From Rhizodiscina lignyota (lineage: Eukaryota > Ascomycota > Dothideomycetes > Aulographales > Rhizodiscinaceae), in NCBI GenBank assembly GCA_010015805.1, contig ML978122.1, positions 3,258,452-3,322,451 on the forward strand: a DNA stretch of 64,000 nucleotides. Reading direction: 5' to 3'. The notes below the pieces were generated by a model. It made no database searches. It saw only the letters and a program-made list of their open reading frames with translations, and was not told where the DNA came from. The position numbers were made by a program, and so were the translations under genes. Of the stretch, positions 2,674 to 49,728 are shown one piece after another (the stretch's first letter is position 1; each line of letters starts with the position of its first letter).

Positions 2674-4478
2674 ATGACAATTGGTCGAGATACCGGCCGG
2701 CTCGAGGGAAAGACTGGAGAGTCTCTGCATCGCCAGGTCTCGAGTTCCCACATGGACGAACAGCATGCCGGGTCGAAGAAAATGGAAGATGCTGGCCCCA
2801 CAGAAGTTCAAAGACCCAGTTTCGACGGTGAATCCCTTGATTCGGTCAAGGGGGTTATTGATATTCAAGCCATTGATCCAGTATTGGCGAAGAAGATGGC
2901 GCTCGTCAATAAAGCGATTGACGATATCGGAATGACCAATTTCCAATGGAAGCTGTTCTTCCTCAATGGATTTGGATATGCAGTCGACTCGGTTAGTTCA
3001 CAAATACCTTCTTTCCTCCAACCGCATCCTTGTGCCGAGCTAATGCGTCATGACAGCTGCTCGTTGTCGCCCATTCTATTGCGAATCCGGCAGTGCAACA
3101 GGAGTATGGATTACCAAGTCCGCATGTCTCTGGAATTCCACTGGCATCGCAAGTCGGTCTTCTCGTCGGCGCTGGGATATGGGGATTCTCAGCCGATATC
3201 ATTGGCAGGAGGATCGCTTTTAACACAAGCTTGTTTTCCTGCGCCATCTTCGTGATCATTGCTGGAGCAATGCCTGGTTACATATCTTTTGCTGCTTTGT
3301 AGGTGCATCCGCCCTTGTTCCTCATCTGCGGCTGAGAAATGTCCCCAGAGTTGCCATCTATTCCGCTGGCGCTGGTGGAAATTACATCCTGGACGCCACC
3401 AGCTACTTGGAATTCCTTCCAACTACACATGCTTGGCTGGTCACCTTCATGGCCTTGTGGTGGGCTATCGGATATACCGTTACTGGGCTGCTCGCTTGGG
3501 CGTTCATGAGTAACTTCAGCTGTGCGCCAGACGCAACACCGCAGACCTGCACACGTGCGGACAACATGGGGTGGCGGTACCTCCACTTCACATGCGGAGC
3601 ACTTGTCTTGTTCATGGCCCTGGCTCGAGTTACCCTCATCAGGATGGTGCAGACACCACGATGGTTGCTAAGTCAGAATCGAGATGCCGAGGTGATCAAG
3701 GTCTTGAACAAAATATCGGCCGAGTCCAAAAACATGCACCATTTGACGCTGGAGCAGCTCCAAGCAGAAGGTGTCGTCCTTCACACCGATAAATCCGTTT
3801 GGTCCTCTTTGCGACTGAAGATGCACTTCAAAGGTCTCTTCCAGACGCGAGCGCTCGGATGGTCAACGGCCATGATATTGTGCAACTGGTTCGTGATTGG
3901 AATGGTCACCCCACTCTATGGCGCCTTTCTGCCATTCTATCTCTACTCGCGAGGTGCAGATGTTGGGGATGATTCGAATTATACGACATGGAGGGATTAC
4001 GCAATCAACCAGGCCGCTGGTCTTGTCGGTCCACTTATTGCTGCCGTCTTGATCGAAAGCAAATTCATTGGACGGCGGGGTACGTTGGCCATTGGTGCGG
4101 CAATAACGACGGCCCTCCAGTTTGGATATACACAAATCAAGACACCTGCACAGAATCTTGGTGTCTCGGCTGCTATATCTGCTGCATCGTGAGTTCATCT
4201 CCGACTCTTGATAAAGATCGCTGACTATGTCTAGCAACATCTACTACGGCACAATCTATGCGTATACTCCAGAAATCTTGCCGTCCGCTCATCGTGCGAC
4301 TGGTTATGGTCTTTGTGTCGTTCTGAATCGGATCGGTGGCATCCTTGGTGTGCTTGTTGGAAGCTACGCGAATGTAGAGACGACAGCGCCGTTGTTCGTT
4401 TGCGCAGCATTGTTTGGCTTGCTCATCGTGCTCAGCCTGTTGTTGCCATTCGAATCAAGGGGCAAGAGAAGCCAATGA
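2674..4478 (+). CDS. Major facilitator superfamily transporter (sugar/SV2-like group)
   Basis: Four exons (2674-2991, 3057-3298, 3349-4188, 4235-4478) give 547 aa. Introns are 2992-3056 (GTTAGT...GACAG), 3299-3348 (GTAGGT...CCCCAG, 50 nt) and 4189-4234 (GTGAGT...TCTAG, 46 nt); each is needed to keep frame. After a roughly 95-residue hydrophilic N-terminus the protein has the run of hydrophobic segments of a 12-helix MFS carrier. Visible family motifs are GIWGFSADIIGRR (the G-x-x-x-D-x-x-G-R-R loop 2-3 signature), GAGGNYILDATSYLEFLP (helix 4 region of this group) and IYAYTPEILPSAHRATGYG (helix 10-11 region). These fit the plasma-membrane SV2/SVOP-like, sugar/organic-acid group. The substrate is unknown. 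The C-terminus is short and hydrophilic (ESRGKRSQ). Confidence 0.88.
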
Positions 4479-14385: not shown

Positions 14386-15292
14386 TCAAGCCTTGTTGAC
14401 TAAAGTTAGCGTCTCGAAATTGCTGTATCTCGAAAGGTACCGCTCATCTCTCCGGTAATAATAAAGGGTCAATCTGTCCCAGTTTCTCGCCGCCTCCGGT
14501 AGCTGTCGATATCCTGGATCGAATACCAGCAGCCTACGCTTCCCATTCTGGTCTCGCTCAATTCCAACAATAGTCAGAGAATGCGAGGGTCTTTGCAGGA
14601 AAATGGGAGAACGATTGGTTCGAATAATCCGGTCTGACCTTTGACTGGTTCCAGAGGTAAAGTGTGCCTCAATGGAGTCGAGAAGCTCTAGCCATGCCTT
14701 TTCACCTGTGAATGCCGCCGCTTTGCAGGGCAAGTTGAGACTTTGGAGTAGAGCTTGGGCCTATTAAGTATGAGTATGAGTAAGTAATACTCTTTTGGCG
14801 AATGACAGACAGACACACTTCCGATGTACCAATGTGTTTTCGAGTTCCTGTGATTCCACCCGTTTCGATGCGGCCATGATCATTGAAACCCATATTCCAG
14901 GCCTTTTCGATCATCTCCTGCAGCTCCAGTATCGAATAGATAGGATGCGGCTCTGGCAACATCATCTGTATGTTGCGATAAGCACAGAAATGGTTTCCCT
15001 CGCCACGAAGCTTGCATATCTGGGTCACGGACTGATCGCAGAGGTACGCGAATTCGACATCTTGATCCTTTTCTAGTAGATCGGCCAACAGGTTGATAAC
15101 ACCAGACACCTTATTTGTTGGTAACTCCTTCTCGACGATCCTCGCGACGCGGTCTGGCATGCGCTCCTCGAAAGCATGACGACCAAGTTCACGTTTCTGA
15201 GATTGGGGTCAGAATAATATTAAATAGTACAGGCAAATAGAAAAGGAGAGTCTTACTCCAAGACGACGGACATCTGGGGCGCTCTCGTCCAT
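14386..15292 (-). CDS. Peptidase family C78 protein (ZUFSP/UfSP-like ubiquitin-type protease)
   Basis: Three exons (15292-15257, 15196-14819, 14760-14386) encode 262 aa. An in-frame stop lies just upstream of the ATG at 15292. The introns 15256-15197 and 14818-14761 are phase 0. The protein carries the C78 catalytic blocks. RGEGNHFCAYRNIQMM holds the nucleophile Cys (about residue 83), and GRIETGGITGTRKHIGTSE precedes the second splice. SPIFLQRPSHSLTIVGIE holds the catalytic His, and LLVFDPGY holds the Asp. Family members cleave ubiquitin (ZUFSP type, Lys63 chains) or UFM1. Unlike animal ZUFSP, no N-terminal zinc fingers are visible; the protein starts almost at the catalytic core. It is probably a nuclear or cytosolic deubiquitinase, and the ubiquitin preference is inference from fungal relatives. 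Confidence 0.9.
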
Positions 15293-17744: not shown

Positions 17745-18471
17745 ATGTCCAAACTCATCGTTGTTACAGGAGCAACGGGCCGTCAAGGCGGTCAAGTGGT
17801 TCGCGCCTTATTGAATCAGCCATTATTCTCATCCGTTGAATACGCAATCTGTGCAATCACGCGCAATCCAGCATCTCCCGCAGCAAAATCACCTGCCTCG
17901 CTCTCACCGGCCGTTAAGCTCAGCCAAGGTCATCTGTCTAGGCCTTTGAAGCTGGTACAATCTCTTCCGGAAAGGCCATGGGCGATTTATATCATGACGA
18001 GACCCAAGAACACGGAGGTTTAAGATGCGGCACGTCTCATTGATGCTGCTTTGGAAACCGGCGTTCAACATTGTGTTATCTAGCGTGGATCGTGGGCACA
18101 ACTCTACCGAGGGCTTCAATCGATCTTGCAGAGTCCCCGTATGGAACACGAAACATCACATTGAAGCACATCTTCGCCAACGCATTGCAGCAGGAGACGG
18201 CAAGCCCTGCACTTACACCATCATTGGGCCCGTCTTCTCCCTTGACAATTTGGCCCCGAACTTCTTCGGAAGACTCACAGCAACCTGGTGGGACTCATTC
18301 CTCCAAGGAAAGCCTCTCAGGGTAATTGATACTATGGATGTTGGCAACTTTGCTGCTCAAGCACTCCTTGACCCTACCTCTCCCCGCTTTGCAAATGCCG
18401 AAGTCAATCTAGCCGGAGACGTACTCACCTTTGATCAGGCGAATAAGACTTTCTATCAGCGGAGTTGCTGA
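17745..18471 (+). pseudogene. NmrA-like NAD(P)-binding protein, disrupted
   Basis: The first 276 nt encode an intact NmrA-family N-terminus, MSKLIVVTGATGRQGGQVV (Rossmann GxxGxxG) through ITRNPASPAAKS. An in-frame TAA at 18021-18023 then sits where relatives have Gln in NTEVQDAARLIDAALE. Beyond it the same frame continues with DAARLIDAALETGVQH, and near 18079 the homologous reading moves to the next frame (LSSVDRGHNSTEG, VPVWNTKHHIEAHLRQR, YTIIGPVFSLDNLAPNFFGRL). It ends at 18471, earlier than family length. One nonsense change plus one small indel, with no splice sites that could bypass both, points to a pseudogene. Intact relatives are redox-sensing regulators or atypical SDRs. The CAA-to-TAA change is a C-to-T transition, compatible with light RIP or simple drift. 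Confidence 0.8.
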
Positions 18472-18964: not shown

Positions 18965-19968
18965 TTACTGCTTGCTAGGAGCAGCGCAGCCGTAGCCGTA
19001 TCCAAGGTTGATGGAGCAGCCGGCATCCTCTTCAAGGTCACCGCGCTTGATCATTTCCCCGAGGTGTCGCTTCATGATCTCGTTCTCAACAACGTCCCGC
19101 TTGCTTGAGGCACAGCCGTAGCTATAGCCGAGGTTGACTGAGCAGCCAGCATCCTCCTCAAGTCCGCTATCTGTCGCACGTCTCTTGATCTCCTCCTCGA
19201 CGGCGGCCCTCTTGGATGGAGCACATCCGTAGCTGTAGCCAAGGGTGACCGAGCAACCGGCATCGGGCTCAGCCGTCGAGCGCCTCTTGATCTCAGCATG
19301 GCGCTTGGCAATGGCGTCCTCAACCACGGAGCGCTTGGAAGAAGCACAGCCGTAGCTGTAGCCAAGGTTAACAGAGCAGCCAGCGTCCTCCTCGAGGTCA
19401 CCACGCTTGGTCATCTCCGCCAAATGACGCTTCGCAATCTCGCCTTCGACAAAAGCGCGCTTGGAAGACGAGGCGCAGCCATAGCTGTAGCCGAGCGTGA
19501 TGGAGCAGCCGGCATCCTCATTGAGGTCGCCATCGGTTGCGCGCTTCTTGATTTCGTTCTCGACAGCGGAGCGCTTGCTCGAGGCGCAGCCATAGCTGTA
19601 ACCAAGGTTGACAGAGCATCCAGCATCCTCCTCAAGATCGCCGCGCTTCACCATCTCGGCCATGTGGCGCTTTGCGATCTCTCCCTCGACGACATCACGC
19701 TTGGAGGAAGCGCAGCCGTAGCTGTAGCCAAGGTTGACGGAGCAACCAGCATCCTCATTGAGGTCTGTATCAGTTGCACGAGGAAGGAGGCCCTTGGACT
19801 TCAGAGTCTCCAAGATTTTGAGACCTGCGTAATGTCAGCGGCTGCGGATAAGACTGGGATAGGAGAAGGTGGCCTACCTTCAGCTGGGGAAGATGCCTGG
19901 ATGGTTGCTGGGGCGCCAGCAACGGCGGTCGCCGTAGCGAGCATAGACACAAGCTGGGAGAAGAGCAT
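18965..19968 (-). CDS. Secreted Kex2-processed repeat precursor, candidate dikaritin-type RiPP precursor
   Basis: Two exons on minus (19968-19878, 19824-18965; intron 53 nt, GTAGGC...ACGCAG) encode 316 aa. Residues 1-19 form a signal peptide (MLFSQLVSMLATATAVAGA). After a short leader come seven repeats spaced 37-43 residues, each with the core DAGC-S-(V/I)-(N/T)-LGY-(S/G)-YGC. The Cys pairs are 58/68, 100/110, 137/147, 180/190, 221/231, 258/268 and 300/310. Each core except the last is followed by Lys-Arg. Spacers (for example DVVEGEIAKR and HMAEMVKR) also end in KR, so Kex2-type processing would release the cores. This is the plan of UstA-like precursors and of other Kex2-processed repeat proteins. 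The UstYa-like gene 2.4 kb away supports the RiPP reading. An alternative is a pheromone-like peptide, but the usual W-C...G-Q...C core is absent. Confidence 0.88.
18986..19753 (-). repeat. Seven tandem core-peptide repeats inside the precursor
   Basis: Core segments (Asp to second Cys) lie at 19712-19753, 19586-19627, 19475-19516, 19346-19387, 19223-19264, 19112-19153 and 18986-19027. Residues at the two Cys, Leu, Gly and both Tyr positions are invariant. Variation is Val/Ile and Asn/Thr, plus Ser to Gly between the tyrosines in the last copy. The last copy ends APSKQ before the stop instead of SSKR. Confidence 0.92.
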
Positions 19969-22323
19969 TTTGATTGAATGAAGTGTTTGTCCAAACGACT
20001 TGACTTGTGCGATTTTGCAAAGCTGCTTGGATGAACGAAGGGGAGCTTGGTGTCTTGCTTGGCTGACGACTCGCTATGGTGCTGAGATCGGAGGCGATGG
20101 TTCTCGTCAAAAGCCGTGAAATCGAGTGCATTTATACCTATCAGGACGACACCATTATCGCCCCTCGCGACTCTATCGTCGCAGCTCTTTCTGCATTTCT
20201 GGAAGGTCTTCGTTATCGTGCTCATCAACATCGTCGCTTTCGACTTTCGAGTCAGTTTCGCGCCCGTCTGTCTCATCAGTTGTACCTCCAGGCCCACAAA
20301 TGCTGAGCTGATTGTTGATCTAAGAGTCCGTAAACGTTGACTGATAGTCCCTGAACGTTGAGTTGAGGAAGGTTTCGTAGTGATCAGGTCGAAAATCTTG
20401 CTCTTCATTGCAATGATATTCGCGTCGTCAGCGCTGAACGGCCCTTCTGAATGTGACTTTGAAATACCGAGTATTGATCAACCCTTGGCTCAGCAAGACT
20501 GTGGAGAAGTCCATGTCGACTAAATCGAAGGTCCTTCCTTTTATTTCAATGATTTTCGAACCCCCAGCGAGTGAGCATTTGTAAACTCCCTAGTCTCGCG
20601 CGGAGACTCGAGCCGGTTTATCTTTGATCAACGAACGATGACCGTGAGCAGTCAAGTTGGCCTCGCAAGGAGTATACGCAGGGGCTACGACCGCTGATGG
20701 AATTCCGAGAGTTGTACCGTGTACGAGTTCAGGCGATTCTGTCAATCATCAGCCGCGACAGTCACGAGATAATAGACGAGAGAGAATCATCACTCAAGAT
20801 AGAAATCGGTAACGAGGTTTGAGGAGAAGGTGTTTCTCGTTCTCGGATTAACACACCCCCTTTACCTTCTCCTTCGGTATGTACACAGAGCAGCACTAGC
20901 GCGCTAGGGGCGACAACCACGACTGAAGTTGATCATAACTTGGGAGAGAAATAGTAGTAGAACTAACGAGAGGAGGGGACATAGTACTGCCGCGAAGGAG
21001 ATCGACAGTGCGCTCTCTAGTTGCAGCAAATTACGAGCAGAACGGAACAACGAAAAGCCCTCCTCTTCATGAAAGTGGCAAGAAAAAGACAAATAGAAAG
21101 ACGACACACTGTGGCTACACATTACTAGAGATATCAGAAATGATTCCCTGACTCGCGCAACCACACCAAGCCTTCAGCTTATGGAATGTAAAGTCAGATT
21201 GTAAGAACGAAGGAGAGAGATGTCGTTGGATTAAAGTGCGTTGATCGTGCTCCATCAGGACAGCTTGCAGGGACCTTGGGACGAGAAATATGGAGCCAAT
21301 ACCGACGCACAGTAACCCCATGAGATGGCACAGTAATACGCTCTCAAAATACAGCCAGAAGCGGCAACCTACGATTTCCCCAGCAATGAAGGCATGGTGA
21401 CTTACGGATCCACATGGGGTATTTTGGCCCCAAAGAGGCATTTCTACTGCTATCATAGGCTAGCCTCGCATTCGCATTACGCTCTAACCTCGTAATCGTA
21501 TTAATCCGACTAATTAAATACTTTCCCGTGCCCGCGATTTTAGCGATGTGACAGGCTAAGACAATTCCATTGGATGGGAATGCTCACCTTTTGGCACCAG
21601 CCTGTTTATTCCCGGCAAAATAAGATTTTAACCTTAACACTACTCCTGTACGCCTCGGTGCGAACCGATCTACTGTGGGGTTGAGGGGTTGCAACATCTG
21701 CATAAGTACAATGCTCTCAAATTATCACAGGTCGTATTTTCGTAGCCTTCACGCTAAGAACGGGTACATATCTCGTCAGAAGAATATTTGGGAACCAATT
21801 CGCGGAAGGTATCTGGACCTTTGGCCCCAAGATCAACGGGCCTGATAAAACGTTCAGTTACACGTGCAGCCTCATTTCAGCTCAAGTGGCCTCAAGCCAC
21901 GGCAAATTCGAGAGCATGTCGCATCCTCCTGCCACATTCAGCCTTGAATCTGATACAAACGAGCAATTCAAGGGCTAGTTTACCGCTGGTATCCGTCACA
22001 CGAGCCCCACGCTGTCTCGTCCACGACTTGGCAGACTTGCATTCAACCTGAAAGTCGTCCGCATTATCCGAACGATGTCGGAGGCGTGAGAATATGGTCC
22101 GCACGCTCTTCGCAACGCAAAAGATAGCCTCTGACATGAAAGGGGCGGAAGGACAATCACAACCATCCTGAGTGATAGTTGAGCTAAACATTTGCATATC
22201 ACTTTCCCTCCCATTTTGAAGATCTTTCACCTTGGAGCCTTGAAAGAGTCTTGTGGTCTGCTATAGACATGGCTTTGCTTCGCTCCGCTCTGTCTTGTAC
22301 ATTCCATTCAAACTTCTCACAAA
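19969..22323. other. 2.36-kb divergent region, precursor / UstYa-like gene
   Basis: This is the long shared upstream region of the two peptide-cluster genes. I find no gene I can support. Minus frames around 21115-21456 and 21892-22230 are open for about 110 codons, but the composition is unconvincing. At 21407-21440 minus, a NTPCGS codon run is followed directly by a GTAAGT donor, which could be a short exon of an unrecognised gene. A divergent layout over such a distance would allow shared cluster regulation. Confidence 0.4.
20131..20136 (-). promoter_or_regulatory. TATA-like element upstream of the precursor gene
   Basis: On the minus strand TATAAA lies in the context GGTATAAATG, about 163 bp upstream of the precursor ATG at 19968. 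Position and sequence suit a fungal TATA box; no transcript data support it. Confidence 0.35.
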
Positions 22324-23292
22324 ATGGAATTGGATGAAAAATATCACGACGAGGACATTGCCCTGCGCTCTTCAGGCGAAGAGGAGTCCAAGAGTGACCC
22401 TCATGAAGCCTTTCTACCATCCGGTAACAAGAGAAGATATGTCCAGATCCAAGTCTCAATTCATAGGTGGATGCTGCATGTTCTGCTCCTGAGTATCAAC
22501 CTTCTGGCACTCATCTATCTTGTCTTGTCTTTGCGGGAGAGTAAGGTGGAACGTCTGGTTTATTGTAAGCGTTATCTTTTCAGTCTCCTTCTGCTCATAA
22601 GCTTACATTTTATAGCACCTCTCAACGATATTATCACACCCACCAGGGAGTATCGAAACATCACGCTCGGCGATCGGACGCCGTTCACAGATGCTCCAGG
22701 TCCTGCTGTCGATGCGCTGTGGAATAGCATCTCTGTTCCTCCCGGAGATGTCGGCGTCGTTATCCTGAATCAGCAAGAGAAAGACAAGTGGGGTGTTACG
22801 ACTGTGAAATTGGCAGATGGTTCAGGATATGCAGCCACAATCGACGTGTTCCATCAACTTCACTGTCTGGATCAGCTGAGGCAATTCATTTTCAATGACA
22901 CGTACAAGATCTCACCTACAGAGCATCCGCTGTGGGAAGATCATATCGGTAAGTTGCTTACCAATGTCATGTCCTGTTGCTGACTCTTACTCAAAGCACA
23001 TTGCATTGACTCAATTCGCCTCTCTCTACAGTGCAGTGCAGACGTGAGTTTGATGCCATGGAATTGGATTCGTGGTTATGCGCTGCCCTGGCCTGATTTT
23101 CGGGCCAAGCATGAGTGTCGTAACTGGGACGACATTGTCGCATGGGCATTGGACCGGAAGCTGGATACGGAGAAGCCAGGCATTTGGGTCCATCCAGAAC
23201 TGGGAAATAAAGACCTTTTGGATGAGAGCTTCACGCAAAATCCTTTGGAGGATGGGAAGGAAATTGAATATTTGGAGGATAATCTCTACTAG
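22324..23292 (+). CDS. UstYa-like (DUF3328) oxidase
   Basis: Three exons (22324-22564, 22616-22948, 22997-23292) encode 289 aa; introns of 51 and 48 nt have GTAAGC and GTAAGT donors. A cytosolic N-terminus of about 48 residues is followed by one membrane helix (WMLHVLLLSINLLALIYLVLSL, residues 49-70), then a lumenal domain. The two DUF3328 signatures are both present: HQLHC at residues 160-164 and, created by the second splice, HIAHC at 190-194. Family members (UstYa/Yb in ustiloxin, and those of phomopsin, asperipin and cyclochlorotine pathways) act in oxidative cyclisation or chlorination of peptides and probably bind metal through the HxxHC pairs. The precursor gene lies divergently 2.4 kb away, so this is the likely core-modifying enzyme. 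Only one UstYa-type gene is in the window; many clusters have two or more. Confidence 0.93.
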
Positions 23293-24027: not shown

Positions 24028-24864
24028 CTATTTCAAGCTCTGTAAGAATTCTTGATATAGCCGCAAGCAATTTTTAGACGCTTCGGGCTCCAAATAAATC
24101 TCATGGCCATTTGCCTTGATCAGCTCCTGCTTCGAGCCTTTGACAGCTTCATGCAGATCCTTCTGCTCGTCCAAATTGACGAGCTTGCTGTTGGACGGCG
24201 TCAACATCAGCATCGGAACCTTGATATTATTCATAATCCTTCGAGCGTCGAAGTCACTCGAGCACAATAGCTCGGCGTGATCTCCAAGGCCTTTGCCATC
24301 CATGTCACCAACCTCCTTCAGCCACCATTTCACAAACGCTGGATCGGCATCTTTGCTCGTGTTCAGGACATTGAGAATTTCTTCTCCCCACCCACGCGCA
24401 CCGAGGTCACGGAGGGCATCCGCCCAGCTCTTGTGCCCGAATGCCAGCATTTCCTGCGCTGCTTTCGGCATGTAGAGTGGCGAGGAGCATATCGCGAGCG
24501 AATGCAAGCGCTCCGGATACTTCGCCGCAAAGAACTCGCCCCATATACCACCGGTAGATTCTCCGATATAGTGGACTTTTTCCAAGCCGAGCTGGTCAAG
24601 CGTATCCTTGATTTCGTCGAGGATCGTGTCCATGTCGTACGTGTACTCTGGTTTGGTTGGAGCGCTGGACTTTCCATGTCCACGAGCATCTCGACGTATC
24701 ACTCTGTAGTTCTGAGCAAGGACTGGGACCCATTTGTACCAAAAGATGGCAGAACGAGCAAATCCGTGCTGGATCAGGATCGTGTCGTGCGGCTTCCAGG
24801 GATCAACAAAGTCGTCCTCATAGTAGAAGGTCTTCTGCCCATTGGGGTGAGTGATGTACGGCAT
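24028..24864 (-). CDS. Alpha/beta-hydrolase fold protein
   Basis: Single exon, 278 aa. It shows the oxyanion block ILIQHGFARSAIFWYKW, the RDARGHGKS loop and the nucleophile elbow GESTGG (Ser103). A C-terminal NGHEIYLEP supplies His254. The segment after strand 7 (MLTPSNSKLVNLDEQ) lacks the usual Asp at its standard place, so the acid is uncertain; that is common in this fungal subgroup. The size and absence of a signal peptide fit a cytosolic esterase, lactonase or C-C hydrolase of the 3-oxoadipate enol-lactonase-like group. It is convergent with the UstYa-like gene and could serve the peptide cluster, but hydrolases of this kind are also common alone. Confidence 0.9.
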   Translation of the reverse strand: MPYITHPNGQKTFYYEDDFVDPWKPHDTILIQHGFARSAIFWYKWVPVLAQNYRVIRRDARGHGKSSAPTKPEYTYDMDTILDEIKDTLDQLGLEKVHYIGESTGGIWGEFFAAKYPERLHSLAICSSPLYMPKAAQEMLAFGHKSWADALRDLGARGWGEEILNVLNTSKDADPAFVKWWLKEVGDMDGKGLGDHAELLCSSDFDARRIMNNIKVPMLMLTPSNSKLVNLDEQKDLHEAVKGSKQELIKANGHEIYLEPEASKNCLRLYQEFLQSLK

Positions 24865-26529
24865 GATTATCTCCTTTGAATGTGAAATCTTTGCCTAAAT
24901 TCAAACGCAAACTGCGACTTTGACGTAGTTATTCGATACCGCTGATGCGGGGGAGCTCAATTCAAATCTCGTCCGAGGCAGTTCCGCGTGCAAACCGTCC
25001 GGCCCACCTCGATCCACGTCCAATAGCATCTTCTCTCGGGAAAAATAGCAGGCGTGCTTTTTAGACACGATGAAGCGACGTGGTGAATGTACAGATGAGA
25101 ATTGAGAGGAGGATCCATCAAGACAAGGAAAGGGGCTTAGGGCAAGGGGCATGTCGACGACTGCTGCGGCAAGTGGAGCCGACGCTTGGCGGTGCTGCTC
25201 AACTACAACGTCGCATCTCAGCTCTGTCGGTTCTGTTGTAATTCTCCCTCAAAGCTCTCAAGCTCGTGCACGATGATAGTTCTTCTGAAATTCATTGGTC
25301 CATTAATCGCTTCGTATCTTCTACCGCTATGCTACCGAATATCTGATCGAACTGCCTGTCGCCGAGCTGATTGCATGGACCTACCCTCGAGATGAGCCAG
25401 ATGCTCGATTCGATACGTACGATCGCAGCCTCTCACCATGATTCCTTGAAACGTACCAAACGGAAATTCATATGTCGGACATGCTCATGGGCGCAGGGCT
25501 GAGATGGGTCCATACCGTTGGTAGACTGGCAATGGTGCCTGGAGTGGGAGACAAAAGTTTGGAAGCTCTGTTCGACTGTCATGGAATGCCGTCCATGTGC
25601 AGTCGAAACCGAATTGCAAGGTGCAAATACTCCTCAATTCGAAGGTAATGCATCGTCTCCCATTTTTCATTGACTGCAGTGGCGTCGTCGGTTTTCTACT
25701 TTGCTTTCCCTTAGCTTCTCCTACTCCATCAGGTCTCAACAATCGTGCTTCGCCATGTCTTTTATCCTCTCTCCTAAATCTTCGAGCCCTTTGCCTCCGC
25801 ATTGCCTCCTTATCATCTCTATCACCTCCAGTTGCTCCGTCTCCGTCACCTTGACCGTAATGCGCCTGTACTCATCTTCAGAAGTGTCAAACCGTGTCAT
25901 CACCATCATACAGGCTGCCGTAGACGTTGACCTTGTGGCCATTCGCAAGTTCAGGCCTGCCGGTGGACACCATCCAAGGATGCTGCAATATCCATCTCAA
26001 ACGGTCCATCACGAAGGGCAAACCATATTTCTCCCTCCATGCTGTGGCCACCCAGAGCATGTAGCCGTCTGGTATCAGAGGAAAGCCGTGGATGTGCGAT
26101 CGTTTTGGCGAGCTACTCTGATCAACCAGACCGCTCTTTTCGCCTACGACTGTGCAGTAATAGTTAGTGGTCCGCCCAAAGAATCGGATACCCCAATGAC
26201 TCACGAGTTTTTGAACTCTGTCGTGGTATTGGTGCTGTTCCCGCATCATGGCGCGATTTCTCTGCCGGTGGAGCTTGGGAAGTTTCTTGCCTGATCTTGC
26301 CATTTTCTCAATCCAAGTCAGGCACCAATGACGTCCAGTTTTGAAGTCGGCATTGCGTGCTGCATAGCAGTGAAAGGCGAGATTGGACGCGTCTTCAATA
26401 TTGATGACGCCACAATGCACGCGGGCTTGGCAAACGCGCCAATGTTGACTTCTCCCCCTGTCGCTTAACACTAACAACCTCTTCACTCTGTACTTGTCAA
26501 CAAACAACAAACTTACTTACTCACCACCA
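24865..26529. other. 1.66-kb region with possible unmodelled minus-strand gene
   Basis: I could not build a firm model. On the minus strand, 26303 down to about 25736 contains coding-like pieces. One is MARSGKKLPKLHRQRNRAMM, starting at 26303 and followed by a GTGAGT donor and an ACTAACTATTACTGCACAG branch/acceptor. The other is DEYRRITVKVTETEQLEVIE, ending at 25736. The frames do not join cleanly with the splice sites I can see. A small Lys/Arg-rich protein is possible. Confidence 0.3.
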
Positions 26530-31974: not shown

Positions 31975-32633
31975 GGATAACGTGGAACATGTGGAAATCG
32001 TGGAAGACTCCCAAACGAAGAGAGCTGATTGAATAGTAGTATCCGGGATTAGGCCATCAGTTCTTGAATCATTAGCGAATGGCTTTCGCTTCCCATGAAA
32101 GCAGTTAAAGAAGATTCATACGACATTGCACAATCTCAGAATCGAGCGCCTTTACGCCTTTCGGCTCAGCCATTTCTCCTCGCCGGCACGTCAATCCATG
32201 CCAAGTACTTGAATGGATAGCCAGACCAACATGCCATTCGTTCCGCTGACAGTGATCGATGCCGTTCTTCAGCGATGACCTCCAAACTGACATTGCATTT
32301 GAGGTGTCTGCCGGCGTACAAAACGCGTGACGCCATACGATTTCGCGCGTATTAGCGCGATTTAGTGGGGTGAGAGATTCGCCTGACCCCTGGAAGTGAC
32401 TCGCATAATACTCCGAAAGTCCATCACCAGTTTCTGTGAGCTTTCGTCTTTCTTTCCGAGTGTCATTTCATTTCATGCCAATCCTTTAATTTCATTAGCC
32501 ACTCGTTAAATCCTCCACTTCACTTCCACCCCTTTGCCAATTCGCGACCCAAATTGATATCCGTAAAGCACTTTTCATTTTCACTACACGTTATAATGCA
32601 AATCATCGAAGGATTCCAGGTCGAGCCGAAGAC
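31975..32633. other. Intergenic, transporter remnant to DUF6604 pseudogene
   Basis: I see no gene. A C/T-rich leader-like stretch at about 32430-32600 precedes the pseudogene ATG. Confidence 0.45.
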
Positions 32634-35416
32634 ATGCCTCTACCGAATCTTCTGTCAGGAAGCTACAAACAGTACAAAGACGACACAAACGTATTTACAA
32701 CGTGGCTCCACCAAGCGGCCACAGCATGTGGCTACAAATCCTCGAGCCCGATCCAGCCAGCGTCAGTGCCAGACAAAACAGTGGCCTCGCCTTCTCCTGC
32801 TGCTATCACTGCTCCATCCAAGCGATTGAAAGGCAAGGAACGAAAATTAGCGAAGCAAACCGCCAGCATCTCGGCGACGTCGAAATCAGCGCCCCAACCA
32901 GTGAAGCCTCCAGCAGAGCCGGTCAAATACAAAGTCTCAACGCAGGAGATTCTCACACAAGCAAGGGCAATTGCGACGTCAGGATTCAAGGGATTGGTTC
33001 TTCCGAGTGGGATTCGAAAGGTGCTTGACCGAGCAATTTCCGCGCGAGAACGCTGTGCGGAGCCCTATACCAATGCTGGCGTGCAAGACGTTCGCTCCGA
33101 TGAGGGCCACCGACACTTCATTGAAATTCTTCAGCACGCAAAAGTGCTTCTGGATCCACAAGTTCCAACGGAGGAAAGACACATGCCTAACACACGTGCA
33201 CGCAGTGGTACGACCAAGGGTCGGGAGCTTGAATCACAAAAGCAGCTAGCCAACATGTTCAAGGCATTGGAATTGGAGAACGTTGATGAAGAGTTCCGTC
33301 TGACACCTGTTGATGTGGCCCTTGCTGCAAGGACCGAGAAACGCAATTGCAAGACGTCTGTGAGATTTACGAGCTTGACGACAGCAGACACCTGGACGTG
33401 GCCTTTGAATTGTTTTGCTTCTTTGAAGATCTCCACGAAATCGAAGGCCAGATCAAGTCCACCTGAAAAAGGTTCGTAGCCGGCGAAGTCAGCCTGATTA
33501 CCGCAACTGTGACAACACAAGCTGCGATCGACATGGTAAAACGTATGGAAAAGGAGACTCAGCTCTCTATCCGCGCCAAGGAAAGCGCATCTCGACACCC
33601 TTATGTAACCCTGTCTATACGCATCTTCGCAGAAGCAATGGCGAGTCTACGCATTGTTGGCTTCAACCTGGATACTCGAGCATCAGCCATTCCACGATTT
33701 CATCTACCTCCCAACGGCACGAATTCTCATGAAGTTTGCGAGTGTAGGGGCTTTTTGTCGGGATAAGGACTGGCCCATACCTGTACCCTCAATGAAATTT
33801 GGCTACCTATCTCGACCCCATCTGCTGGAACGGCCCGTGTACAAGAAACTGGATGCGAACGATCGTATTCTGACAGAGTTGCTCCTTGACATTGCATTGG
33901 CTGATAAACTCCAGAATTCACATTTCGCCATCAAGACTGGAGTGGCAGCGGAGCTTCGAAAGGATAATTCCAACGTCGACCTTGGCGATGAGTTTGCGAA
34001 AAGTCTCCACGAAATTTGGGAATCGGGCAAGGTGTCGACGTACACTGTCTTTGCTGGGCAGCTGATACTCGATATACTGGATATTTGCGGCGGTCGACCG
34101 CTTTTTCACGAGAAAATGCTCGAAGCTGGCCGAAAAGCAGACGGAACTTTCGGTTGGAAGATAACAAACGGTGTGATGGATTTTCCTGAGGCGCGCTGGA
34201 TGGACAATAGCACGCCTCTGGTACGGGACGCCTGGATGCTGATCACACATCATATACCGCTGCCGTTTTCCTCTTATGTGAAGCAAAAGAAATTGGAACC
34301 AGTTCCATCGCGACCGACTTTCTTTCTGAACTCGGATGAGGCGCCTCCTGAAGTGCGGGCGATAATGGACGAGTACAATGCGGCAAAAGGAATAAGCCGC
34401 CGGGACAAGGAGGCGGTGGCTATGATGAAGCGCCTTGACATGAGAGAGATAAAACCAAACCAAGAACAAACCTTTCTTTTCACGCACAATCCACTATTTT
34501 GCGGTAGGGCGACGTTAAAGCTGGCCGTGTTGCAGGAGCAGGCAGGAATTGCCCTTGCGAATCACCATATGTCCATATTCACAACAGCATATCTGTACAA
34601 CGCACTCCAGCAACTTCGACTCACTGAAGTACGTTGGCCAGAAATCGAGCGTATTATTGAACTGCATAAAGGGCCCATATTCGCAGACAGGATCCTGACG
34701 ACAGCGAGCGAGATGTTCCACTGAATGTCGTATCGAACTGGCGTACGTGCGCAAATGAGAGGAGAGGCGCAGATGAAGCGCTTCGACGAAAAGAGGACGT
34801 ATCTCATGTCGACCAATGCGGCATCAGACGCGCTGAGAGAGATGCTTGACAGTAAAGGGTCATTGGAAAGGGCGCTCATCCAGCTTGAGGATCAAGTCCA
34901 TAAGCATGAATCTATGCTGAATGGTAAGTTCTCCGACGGTACATTGTGGCGTTATTCGGAAATGGTGCTGGTGGGGAAGAAGCTAACTCCAGGAGTCAGA
35001 ACTTCCGAAGAAGTCGGCGTTCCGCCGTCGATGCCATCTAACGCCAGTCGAATTGCTTTGCGGACTCGAATCGTATCTCAACACAGCTCTCAACGACATT
35101 GAAATCGACTATATTACGCTCACCAAGACCTGCAATCGACTGATGAAGTCCATGCGCGTAGTTTTCGAGAACAAATACGGCCAAAGCTACCAGTCCACCC
35201 AGGAATATGGACAGTCGGTTGACCATTCTTGATTCACCAGTGCTGAAACTCCTCGAAGACCATGATCCCAATCACAACTGTCCGGAATGTGCTCGGGAAA
35301 GGCGAAGATTCAACGCGCCCGTTCGTCAGGACTCGGGAGGCGAACAGCTTCGAACTGCCAGAGATCTCTTTGAAGAGTTTTTCAATGCTAATATCAGACC
35401 GGCCATCGAGGGTTGA
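32634..35416 (+). pseudogene. DUF6604-domain protein, multiply disrupted
   Basis: The start (LPNLLSGSYKQYKDDTNVFT) is the DUF6604 N-terminus. Homology then wanders between frames. Frame 1 runs to about 33310-33345. The next frame (DVCEIYELDDSRHLDVAFEL, FFEDLHEIEGQIKST) has a TGA at 33464-33466 where relatives have Trp, then GEVSLITATVTTQAAIDM. Near 33670 it shifts back (PFHDFIYLPTARILMKFASV) and stays open to a TGA at 34722-34724. After that, MSYRTGVRAQM continues in frame. A normal-looking intron (34924-34992, GTAAGT...CTCCAG) follows, and near 35220 another shift leads to LTILDSPVLKLLEDHD and the end. Two stops and three shifts without fitting introns indicate an inactive gene, unless the assembly is faulty. 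Intact relatives are large fungal proteins of unknown function. Confidence 0.75.
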
Positions 35417-48195: not shown

Positions 48196-49245
48196 TCATG
48201 CTTTAGCCCAGTTTGTCGATGACAGTCCGCATAACTTAAAATCAAGTCCTCTTTTGAATATACACAATTCATCATCTTCCGGTAGCATTGGTGAGAGATA
48301 CGACTCTTTAGACGCACCAACGCCGTCGGTCTCTTCCCACACAGCGGCCCAAACGTCCATTGTCCTCAGTGCCTCGTCATCCCCATCATTCTCGGGACCA
48401 ACAACTTGGGCGACCAGTAGCTCCAACGCCTCTTCCGCTGATAGCCATACCGCTTCCTCCTTCGTTAAAGGCTCGTGTTTCCTCATCTTGCTCAGCCTCT
48501 CCCGAGCATCTGCCAATACCATCCGCACCTCCCACATTCCGTCTTGCACTTCTTCATCTGGTGTAATCGCCTCAACGGAACGAATCTCCCACCCAGCAGT
48601 CCTCGCAATTCTTTCAATAAGGCATCGACTCATTGGCATCCGGATATTCTCGTCGCTCGTCTCGTCGCGCGACTCTTTGAACCCGCGCACCATTGCAGCC
48701 ATGACGTGCGGTAGTGCAGCAGGATTTTGTGCGCTGAGATTATACTCCGCTGTGCAAATCCTGCTCACACGCCCCTTGAGCGAGTGCAATATGTCTTCAA
48801 GTACCGTGTGAGATCTCAGATACCACATTGACAGGCACATGACTGCTACATCCCACGTCTTCTCCTTCCATTCTCTTTCATTCAGGAATTCGATCGGGTC
48901 CCTACGGCGAAACGTGATGCGCCCGCCGATTTTGCTTCTGCGCAAAAACCTCCAGCTGTCTGCTAGTGTTATTGGTTCGCCATAGTCCAACGGGGCAATA
49001 TCCAGTGCGTCGACGTGGCCGTCTGGTCCTACCGCTTCTGCAAGAATGGCAGTGCATGGGCCCTGACCGCATCCAATTTCCAACTCACGCATGCCGGGTT
49101 TGATTGCGCGCTGCCACGAATTGAGGATCTGAATGCGGAAGCGCGTCTGAATCGTTTCGGTATCTGGGTCATCGGCGTAGAGAGGAGAGGCGTAGCTAGC
49201 GATTCTTCTTGCGGCGGATATAGGGAGAGTGTCGCCGCGTGCCAT
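48196..49245 (-). CDS. SAM-dependent methyltransferase-like protein
   Basis: I start at ATG 49245 (MARGDTLPISAARRIASYAS), giving 349 aa. The frame is open to an upstream ATG at 49446, but those 67 residues are low-quality. Motif I is MRELEIGCGQGPCTAILAEAVG (ExGxGxG), followed by GHVDALDIAPLDYG (motif II acidic residue). Later are WDVAVMCLSMWYL (motif IV-like) and the LKGRVSRICTAEYNL strand. The N-terminal SYASPLYADDPDTETIQTRF is typical of a fungal group of uncharacterised class I methyltransferases. The substrate is unknown. The C-terminal 45 residues are less conserved-looking, and an intron there cannot be excluded. Confidence 0.85.
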   Translation of the reverse strand: MARGDTLPISAARRIASYASPLYADDPDTETIQTRFRIQILNSWQRAIKPGMRELEIGCGQGPCTAILAEAVGPDGHVDALDIAPLDYGEPITLADSWRFLRRSKIGGRITFRRRDPIEFLNEREWKEKTWDVAVMCLSMWYLRSHTVLEDILHSLKGRVSRICTAEYNLSAQNPAALPHVMAAMVRGFKESRDETSDENIRMPMSRCLIERIARTAGWEIRSVEAITPDEEVQDGMWEVRMVLADARERLSKMRKHEPLTKEEAVWLSAEEALELLVAQVVGPENDGDDEALRTMDVWAAVWEETDGVGASKESYLSPMLPEDDELCIFKRGLDFKLCGLSSTNWAKA

Positions 49246-49728
49246 TAGTAATGAGACCACCGATGAGGAGTGCTGGAAGCTAGTTGTGTTTCGCAAAGAC
49301 GGTTTTAAGAAAGTATCGCCAGAACAAAGTGATATATGGTGAGCGAAGGCTGGAATATGCGCCAGCAAACGATGGTGTCTACCGCTTTCCATATTGAACA
49401 ACCAAGCGAGAAGACAACAAACAGGCAAACATGACGGTACTTTCATGATGGAGACGCCAACAAGATAGACTCAGTTGTGCAAAACCAAAGGAAATCAGAT
49501 TGAACAAAGAGAGTCTGCGCCCAGTTCTGAACCGCGCTTTCGACTGTTGGTACAGAAGCGATTGACTCAAATTCTGTCGATGACGAATATCTTCCAAGGA
49601 AAGCAGTACTATGTAGTTCGTCCATTATCCCAGCTTTGAAGTGTATGAGTCATGCTTTGAATGCCGCAGACTGCGCGAGTGGAATGTTCCACTCTTTGAT
49701 AACCATACTGATAAAGAGAAGAGCACAT
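49246..49728. other. Intergenic, upstream of methyltransferase
   Basis: This includes the in-frame extension of the methyltransferase frame up to 49446. Otherwise I see nothing. Confidence 0.4.

Follow-up and report, generated by a model that had tools for sequence, protein, structure and literature searches.

A Kex2-repeat precursor gene beside a UstYa/DUF3328 oxidase gene in Rhizodiscina lignyota, probably encoding a new cyclic peptide of a known fungal class

Precursor proteins with tandem repeats between dibasic sites, the Kex2-processed repeat proteins (KEPs), are repeatedly encoded beside oxidases of the DUF3328/UstYa family: the survey published by Umemura in 2020 records DUF3328 neighbours for 1758 of 7878 KEPs, including 1647 of the 5372 from ascomycetes, and reports that DUF3328 genes accumulate beside KEP genes and that tyrosine is commoner in the cores so placed, at 65.6% versus 38.2% (PMC7329392). 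The arrangement is already known and numerous. The ustiloxin and phomopsin pathways combine the repeat precursor with a tyrosinase and at least two DUF3328 proteins (PMC6514808, PMC12048977), and possession of a DUF3328 protein with two HxxHC motifs is described as class-defining for the dikaritins in the wide sense (PMC12048977). For asperipin-2a of Aspergillus flavus (genes aprA, aprY, aprT and aprR), sequential ring closure has been proposed for the single DUF3328 enzyme (PMC6514808). Here we describe, in a window of 64,000 nucleotides (the whole stretch of DNA analysed) from Rhizodiscina lignyota, a Dothideomycete of the order Aulographales, a repeat precursor gene (18965..19968, minus strand) and a UstYa/DUF3328 gene (22324..23292, plus strand) that together probably yield a new member of this known class of fungal cyclic peptides.

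The two genes are divergent, with their start codons 2356 bp apart, which agrees with the preliminary description in placing a UstYa protein with both HxxHC motifs divergently at 2.4 kb. As with the KEP-DUF3328 genes of the published survey (PMC7329392), repeats lie between dibasic sites behind a hydrophobic N terminus, the cores hold tyrosines, and a DUF3328 gene is near; the core itself differs in that its letters were not met in open full texts. The closest known system is asperipin-2a, with which the pair shares several core tyrosines, a single DUF3328 gene and the lack of a tyrosinase, whereas the core here spans about 22 residues with two cysteines as against a cysteine-free hexapeptide, and no transporter was recognised close to the pair (PMC6514808). 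Of the asperipin-2a gene set, the precursor and single DUF3328 gene are present together with an NmrA-like gene that is broken; the set is at most asperipin-like. The ustiloxin and phomopsin sets likewise have a Kex2 repeat precursor and a DUF3328 oxidase; the window differs from them, as they are described in the sources cited, in its core and in being without a tyrosinase, an S41 peptidase or a second DUF3328 gene. The locus pairs a repeat precursor with a DUF3328 protein that has two HxxHC motifs, which is what marks a dikaritin in the wide sense, and within the window lacks the tyrosinase and several clustered DUF3328 proteins of the narrow sense. The statement that this pairing defines ustiloxin-, phomopsin- and asperipin-type pathways is borne out as to the Kex2 repeat precursor with an intact UstYa gene, and was overstated for a window with one UstYa locus and no tyrosinase.

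Splicing and translation of the precursor gene give 316 residues, from exon 1 (19878-19968) and exon 2 (18965-19824) around a GT...AG intron of 53 bp (19825-19877), with the start codon at 19968 and the stop codon ending at 18965. The N terminus, LVSMLATATAVA, is hydrophobic on the Kyte-Doolittle scale and shows, by eye, a cleavage site of the A-x-A type, consistent with a putative signal peptide of approximately residues 1-20 (19909..19968, minus). The seven cores that follow, all on the minus strand, are GCSVNLGYSYGC as core 1 (19712..19747), core 2 (19586..19621), core 4 (19346..19381) and core 6 (19112..19147), GCSITLGYSYGC as core 3 (19475..19510), GCSVTLGYSYGC as core 5 (19223..19258) and GCSINLGYGYGC as core 7 (18986..19021); the 12-mer GCS[VI][NT]LGY[SG]YGC is present in every one of them. 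Dibasic sites flank cores 2-6 on both sides, core 1 only behind, and core 7 only in front because the precursor ends in SKQ, the site recurring at the same place behind six of the seven cores. A spacer of the DVVEGEIAKR type stands behind each of cores 1-6, and a second one, of the HMAEMVKR type, behind cores 1, 3, 4 and 6. The preliminary account of a signal peptide and seven cores bounded by Lys-Arg thus holds for the hydrophobic N terminus and the number of cores, and for the bounding on both sides in cores 2-6 only; the core letters that it quoted are exact in cores 2 and 4. The published definition of a KEP calls for at least three tandem repeats of at least 8 residues between KR, KK, RK or RR, none above 100 residues, together with an endoplasmic reticulum signal by SignalP (PMC7329392). 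The precursor has cores 2-7 in fragments of 24-28 residues, and for the signal the hydrophobic N terminus by Kyte-Doolittle. Neither Pfam nor NCBIfam gave a family match above the curated cut-off for the precursor.

The core peptide is constrained. Between the seven 12-mers, 55.5% of synonymous sites differ as against 4.9% of nonsynonymous sites, a ratio of nonsynonymous to synonymous differences (pN/pS) of 0.088, whereas pN/pS is 0.369 in the six residues before the core and 0.396 in the 8-residue spacers; hence, the core copies have diverged in their DNA while the peptide was kept, and the cores are under much stronger selection than the spacers. The sole relative recovered, a protein of 150 residues denoted P0040 and predicted on a 55-kb contig (55143 bases), was the one match among 279 candidates to a 153-residue query, at an E-value of 7.7e-27 with 52% identity over 78% of the query. 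P0040 carries three cores together with spacers of both types, and starts MILETL where exon 2 of the precursor starts LKILETL. The core common to both proteins is GCS[VI][NT]LGYxYGC, with nine of its twelve positions (G, C, S, L, G, Y, Y, G and C) invariant over the ten cores, and mean identity between the two proteins is 87% in the cores and 45% in the first spacers. Two invariant cysteines and two invariant tyrosines in one core are unusual, the cysteines, to which the preliminary description gave no emphasis, being its most distinctive trait.

The full-length precursor had no match at an E-value of 1 or below among 5987 candidates from 5.8 billion proteins, a null that is at least partly due to the limit on query length, since the 153-residue query found P0040. 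As neither protein search returned the precursor itself, it is seemingly not annotated in that form. No relatives were found in prokaryote and viral contigs, and no paralogues beyond chance in its own genome (a third row, E-value 0.56, was set aside). The core was also described beforehand as unlike any known product core, and this stands: its letters were not met in open full texts, and P0040 is the only relative found. One core string matched once, in an unrelated psychology paper, which we take as chance. The precursor gene may already be among the 7878 KEPs in the supplement of PMC7329392.

The oxidase gene encodes 289 residues in three exons (22324-22564, 22616-22948 and 22997-23292); the extent proposed for it was right, with the qualification that two introns interrupt it. 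Its spliced model is identical, letter for letter and at 100% over 100%, to the R. lignyota protein NA57DRAFT_72581 (P0001) of NCBI. The proposed profile check was borne out, PF11807 matching both halves of the gene at 63.8 and 62.5 bits against a curated cut-off of 25, and at 128.7 bits over 22462-23154 when read through the introns. The first motif, HQLHC, occupies residues 160-164 (22852..22866, plus), and the second, HIAHC, residues 190-194 (22942..23004, plus), the latter split by the intron 22949-22996. The protein has exactly four cysteines, 164 and 194 within the motifs and 204 and 232 beyond them, all four invariant in an alignment of 21 sequences comprising the query and 20 of the 38 other matches of the protein search; a hydrophobic stretch of 19 residues starts at residue 50. 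Relatives are found in Trematosphaeria pertusa (62% identity over 72% of the query), Bimuria novae-zelandiae (55% over 74%) and Endocarpon pusillum (46% over 95%). A sequence search of the PDB gave one chance row (E-value 0.34) with the single protein and none with the alignment.

The biochemistry of the family bears on how this protein might act. DUF3328 enzymes were reported as copper-dependent in 2025, a dependence described for CctR and, as reported there, for the peptide cyclase AprY (PMC12435403). According to the same source, CctR associates with membranes as a dimer, which two further cysteines link and which is suggested to face the lumen of the organelle. Two copper ions are proposed to sit in its HxxHC(x)nHxxHC motif, with support there from metal counts and spectroscopic data, and replacement of the motif histidines and cysteines by alanine abolished activity. 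The protein described here has in common with CctR and AprY both HxxHC motifs, an N-terminal hydrophobic stretch and two extra invariant cysteines, a likeness of features and not of directly compared sequences; by this analogy, which is our own, cysteines 204 and 232 may be the equivalents of those linking the CctR dimer. Given that both motifs, the hydrophobic stretch and the two extra invariant cysteines are kept, the protein is likely to be active as an oxidase in the lumen of the secretory pathway, through which the precursor would travel as well.

The pairing of a repeat precursor with UstYa recurs in the genome. We found 76 UstYa matches, more than one of which may come from a single gene; joined at 6 kb, they fall into 36 clusters. 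Of these clusters, 27 were read, in pieces of 8-10 kb that add up to 256 kb, for genes in which dibasic sites bound at least three similar fragments, a filter looser than the published KEP definition in having no SignalP requirement. At loci L013-L039, 20 rows passed, of which eight were dropped, seven because they repeat the same DNA in another frame or on the opposite strand and one as a low-complexity frame (L026 6405-8024). There remain 12 repeat genes, the present precursor included, at 11 of the 27 loci, each 0.9-3.2 kb from the nearest UstYa match; at a mean of 5.25 KEPs in each ascomycete genome, as published, about 0.04 would be expected in 256 kb. By this looser filter the repeat precursors exceed that mean, and the R. 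lignyota genome looks rich in KEP-UstYa pairs relative to the published survey. The filter found no other such open reading frame in the window, including among the 377 lying more than 5 kb from the pair. Block-shuffled sequence (1.28 Mb) gave none either, which is a weak control because shuffling breaks repeats by construction.

Taking these lines together, we posit, at a probability of roughly 70%, that the pair constitutes a ribosomal peptide pathway of two genes, or perhaps slightly more, in which the UstYa protein oxidises the precursor cores. The signal peptide would take the precursor into the secretory pathway, where the two core cysteines would form a disulfide in the oxidising lumen, closing the loop C-S-[VI]-[NT]-L-G-Y-x-Y-G-C. 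By the biochemistry of its family, the UstYa protein would act there as a membrane-anchored, lumen-facing, dimeric copper enzyme that oxidises the core, most likely by linking one or both of the invariant tyrosines, its natural targets by analogy with asperipin-2a, to a neighbouring residue. Kex2 would cut after KR or RR, other peptidases would trim the fragments and the spacers would be cut away, so that one precursor could release as many as seven peptides of a single family. The order of disulfide formation, oxidation and cleavage is left free in this scheme, as is retention of the acidic GDLEED in the product. The calculated [M+H]+ of linear GDLEEDAGCSVNLGYSYGCASS is 2196.870, which would become 2194.854 with the disulfide, 2192.838 with one oxidative ring in addition and 2190.823 with two; the corresponding values for the trimmed AGCSVNLGYSYGCASS are 1538.625, 1536.609, 1534.594 and 1532.578. 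More tentatively, the product might be polycyclic, combining in one 12-residue core the disulfide with one or two tyrosine cross-links made by the copper oxidase, or with a bond between a cysteine sulfur and tyrosine; this stronger version we think doubtful. The sections of the literature on UstYa-type peptides covered by our survey contain no description of a disulfide and a UstYa cross-link in one core.

Several observations weigh against oxidation of the cores by this UstYa protein. We infer the modification of the cores from sequence, and tyrosine cross-linking is not assured, since hydroxylation and halogenation are also among the reactions of DUF3328 proteins (PMC12435403). For a shared promoter, 2.36 kb is a long distance, and at 2.6 kb from its nearest UstYa match the precursor is the second most distant of the twelve repeat genes. 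The window has a single UstYa locus; all 12 of 12 tyrosinase candidates scored in the genome are matches, none of them on the contig, and none of the four S41 peptidase candidates, all scored, lies on it either. The count of 11 in 27 stands without a comparison to random loci of the same genome, and does not describe a random sample, for the last seven loci were picked by hand and mostly have several UstYa matches. P0040 shows the precursor kept in a second source and is not evidence that a UstYa neighbour was kept there. To our knowledge, the known dikaritin cores are shorter than the roughly 22 residues that separate the dibasic sites here.

The precursor could instead give rise to a secreted signalling or defence peptide bearing disulfide bonds only, with the UstYa gene serving something else. 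For such a peptide the two invariant cysteines of each core can explain the conserved core ends, 6120 of the 7878 published KEPs are without a DUF3328 neighbour (PMC7329392), and no other tailoring gene is recognisable near the pair. We consider it unlikely in view of the two further invariant tyrosines of the core, the lack of a domain-bearing frame between the genes among the ten frames scanned, and the repeat genes at 11 of 27 UstYa loci, which stand, under the looser filter, against the approximately 0.04 KEPs expected. That the product is an uncleaved repetitive wall or surface protein with incidental KR pairs is far less probable still: the spacers are partly conserved too, with the 45% identity noted between the precursor and P0040, whereas the fixed place of the dibasic site behind six of seven cores, the much stronger selection on the cores and the lack of any Pfam or NCBIfam family match above the curated cut-off all speak against such a protein.

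A secreted repeat precursor with Kex2 sites also recalls the precursors of alpha-type sexual pheromones, some of which have two cysteines in Dothideomycetes (PMC6339444), and three of the spacer fragments (SAVENEIK, HAEIK and AAVEEEIK) start, by eye, with a single XA dipeptide. Nevertheless, the six core-bearing fragments that follow a dibasic site all start otherwise than with XA or XP and so lack the Ste13 signature, none of 17 fragments starts with two such dipeptides, and a DUF3328 neighbour is recorded for only 3 of 216 putative fungal pheromones (98.6% being without; PMC7329392). Moreover, the gene at L026:8518-8769 (C4:732627-732878), which has XP runs and whose core contains a tryptophan besides two cysteines, is a better candidate for the pheromone, and for the present gene we regard that role as extremely improbable. 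The pheromone candidate itself lies 3.2 kb from a UstYa match. The pheromone pattern W-C-x3-G-Q-x-C has one match in the genome, which is not in a repeat gene.

The divergent intergenic region (19969..22323) might serve as a shared control region; ten open frames scanned in it, shorter ones lying outside the scan, gave no Pfam match at an E-value of 0.01 or below, and its repeats amount to weak two-copy matches only. In the NmrA-like reductase gene that adjoins the precursor convergently (17745..18471, plus), PF05368 matches in two separate frames, and translation in three frames shows the gene broken by a frame shift as well as an in-frame stop. It is reminiscent of the isoflavone reductase gene aprR of the asperipin-2a cluster; isoflavone reductases such as aprR belong to the wider NmrA-like family. 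Beside the oxidase gene lies an alpha/beta hydrolase (24031..24870, minus; PF00561, 93.3 bits); for both neighbours membership in the cluster is uncertain. Farther out, one side has a C78 peptidase (14389-15208), an FAD monooxygenase and a Zn2Cys6 regulator, and the other a frame of aquaporin type as well as a short-chain dehydrogenase match that falls below its cut-off. The Pfam scans of the window covered 55 distinct open stretches out of 347 frames of at least 70 residues and also gave a sugar-transporter type frame at 3224-4189, a DUF6604 family frame at 32499-33476 (129.6 bits) and a weak methyltransferase match at 48199-49470, 25 kb away (27.2 bits, cut-off 27). No transporter was recognised close to the pair in these stretches, and the best 9 of 663 candidates of the MFS transporter family that were scored are uninformative on the point. 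Among the best 91 of 228 P450 candidates none is in the window, the nearest being outside it at C2:3233696-3234835. The window ends at the end of contig C2 of the 33.4-Mb assembly, about 41 kb beyond the UstYa gene, and two tandem TTAGGG units were not found in it.

The eleven other repeat precursors, with differing cores, are at L015, L016, L018, L020, L022, L023, L025, L026, L028 and L039. Tyrosinase matches lie near two other UstYa clusters, L023 (C3:503696-513695) and C11:161667-162317; at L023 there are also several UstYa matches and a repeat gene whose units read QKYDIDPDKR, the complement of genes found in dikaritins in the narrow sense, and dikaritin-like sets of that kind seem to exist elsewhere in this genome. 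The gene at L016:7364-7876 (C1:2896529-2897041) has tyrosine-rich repeats led by XA or XP, with an intron seemingly after each repeat as judged by eye from the open frame, and that at L015:2381-3064 has a masked or unassembled stretch (a run of X) within its repeats.

The substrate range of the DUF3328 enzymes is open, and the pair from R. lignyota offers a small system in which to approach it: one precursor, one oxidase and a core kept in two proteins. Its substrate carries both cysteines and tyrosines, a combination that could make the system more than another member of the family. With 12 repeat precursors at 11 of the 27 UstYa loci, the genome is moreover suited to a comparison of cores with their oxidases.

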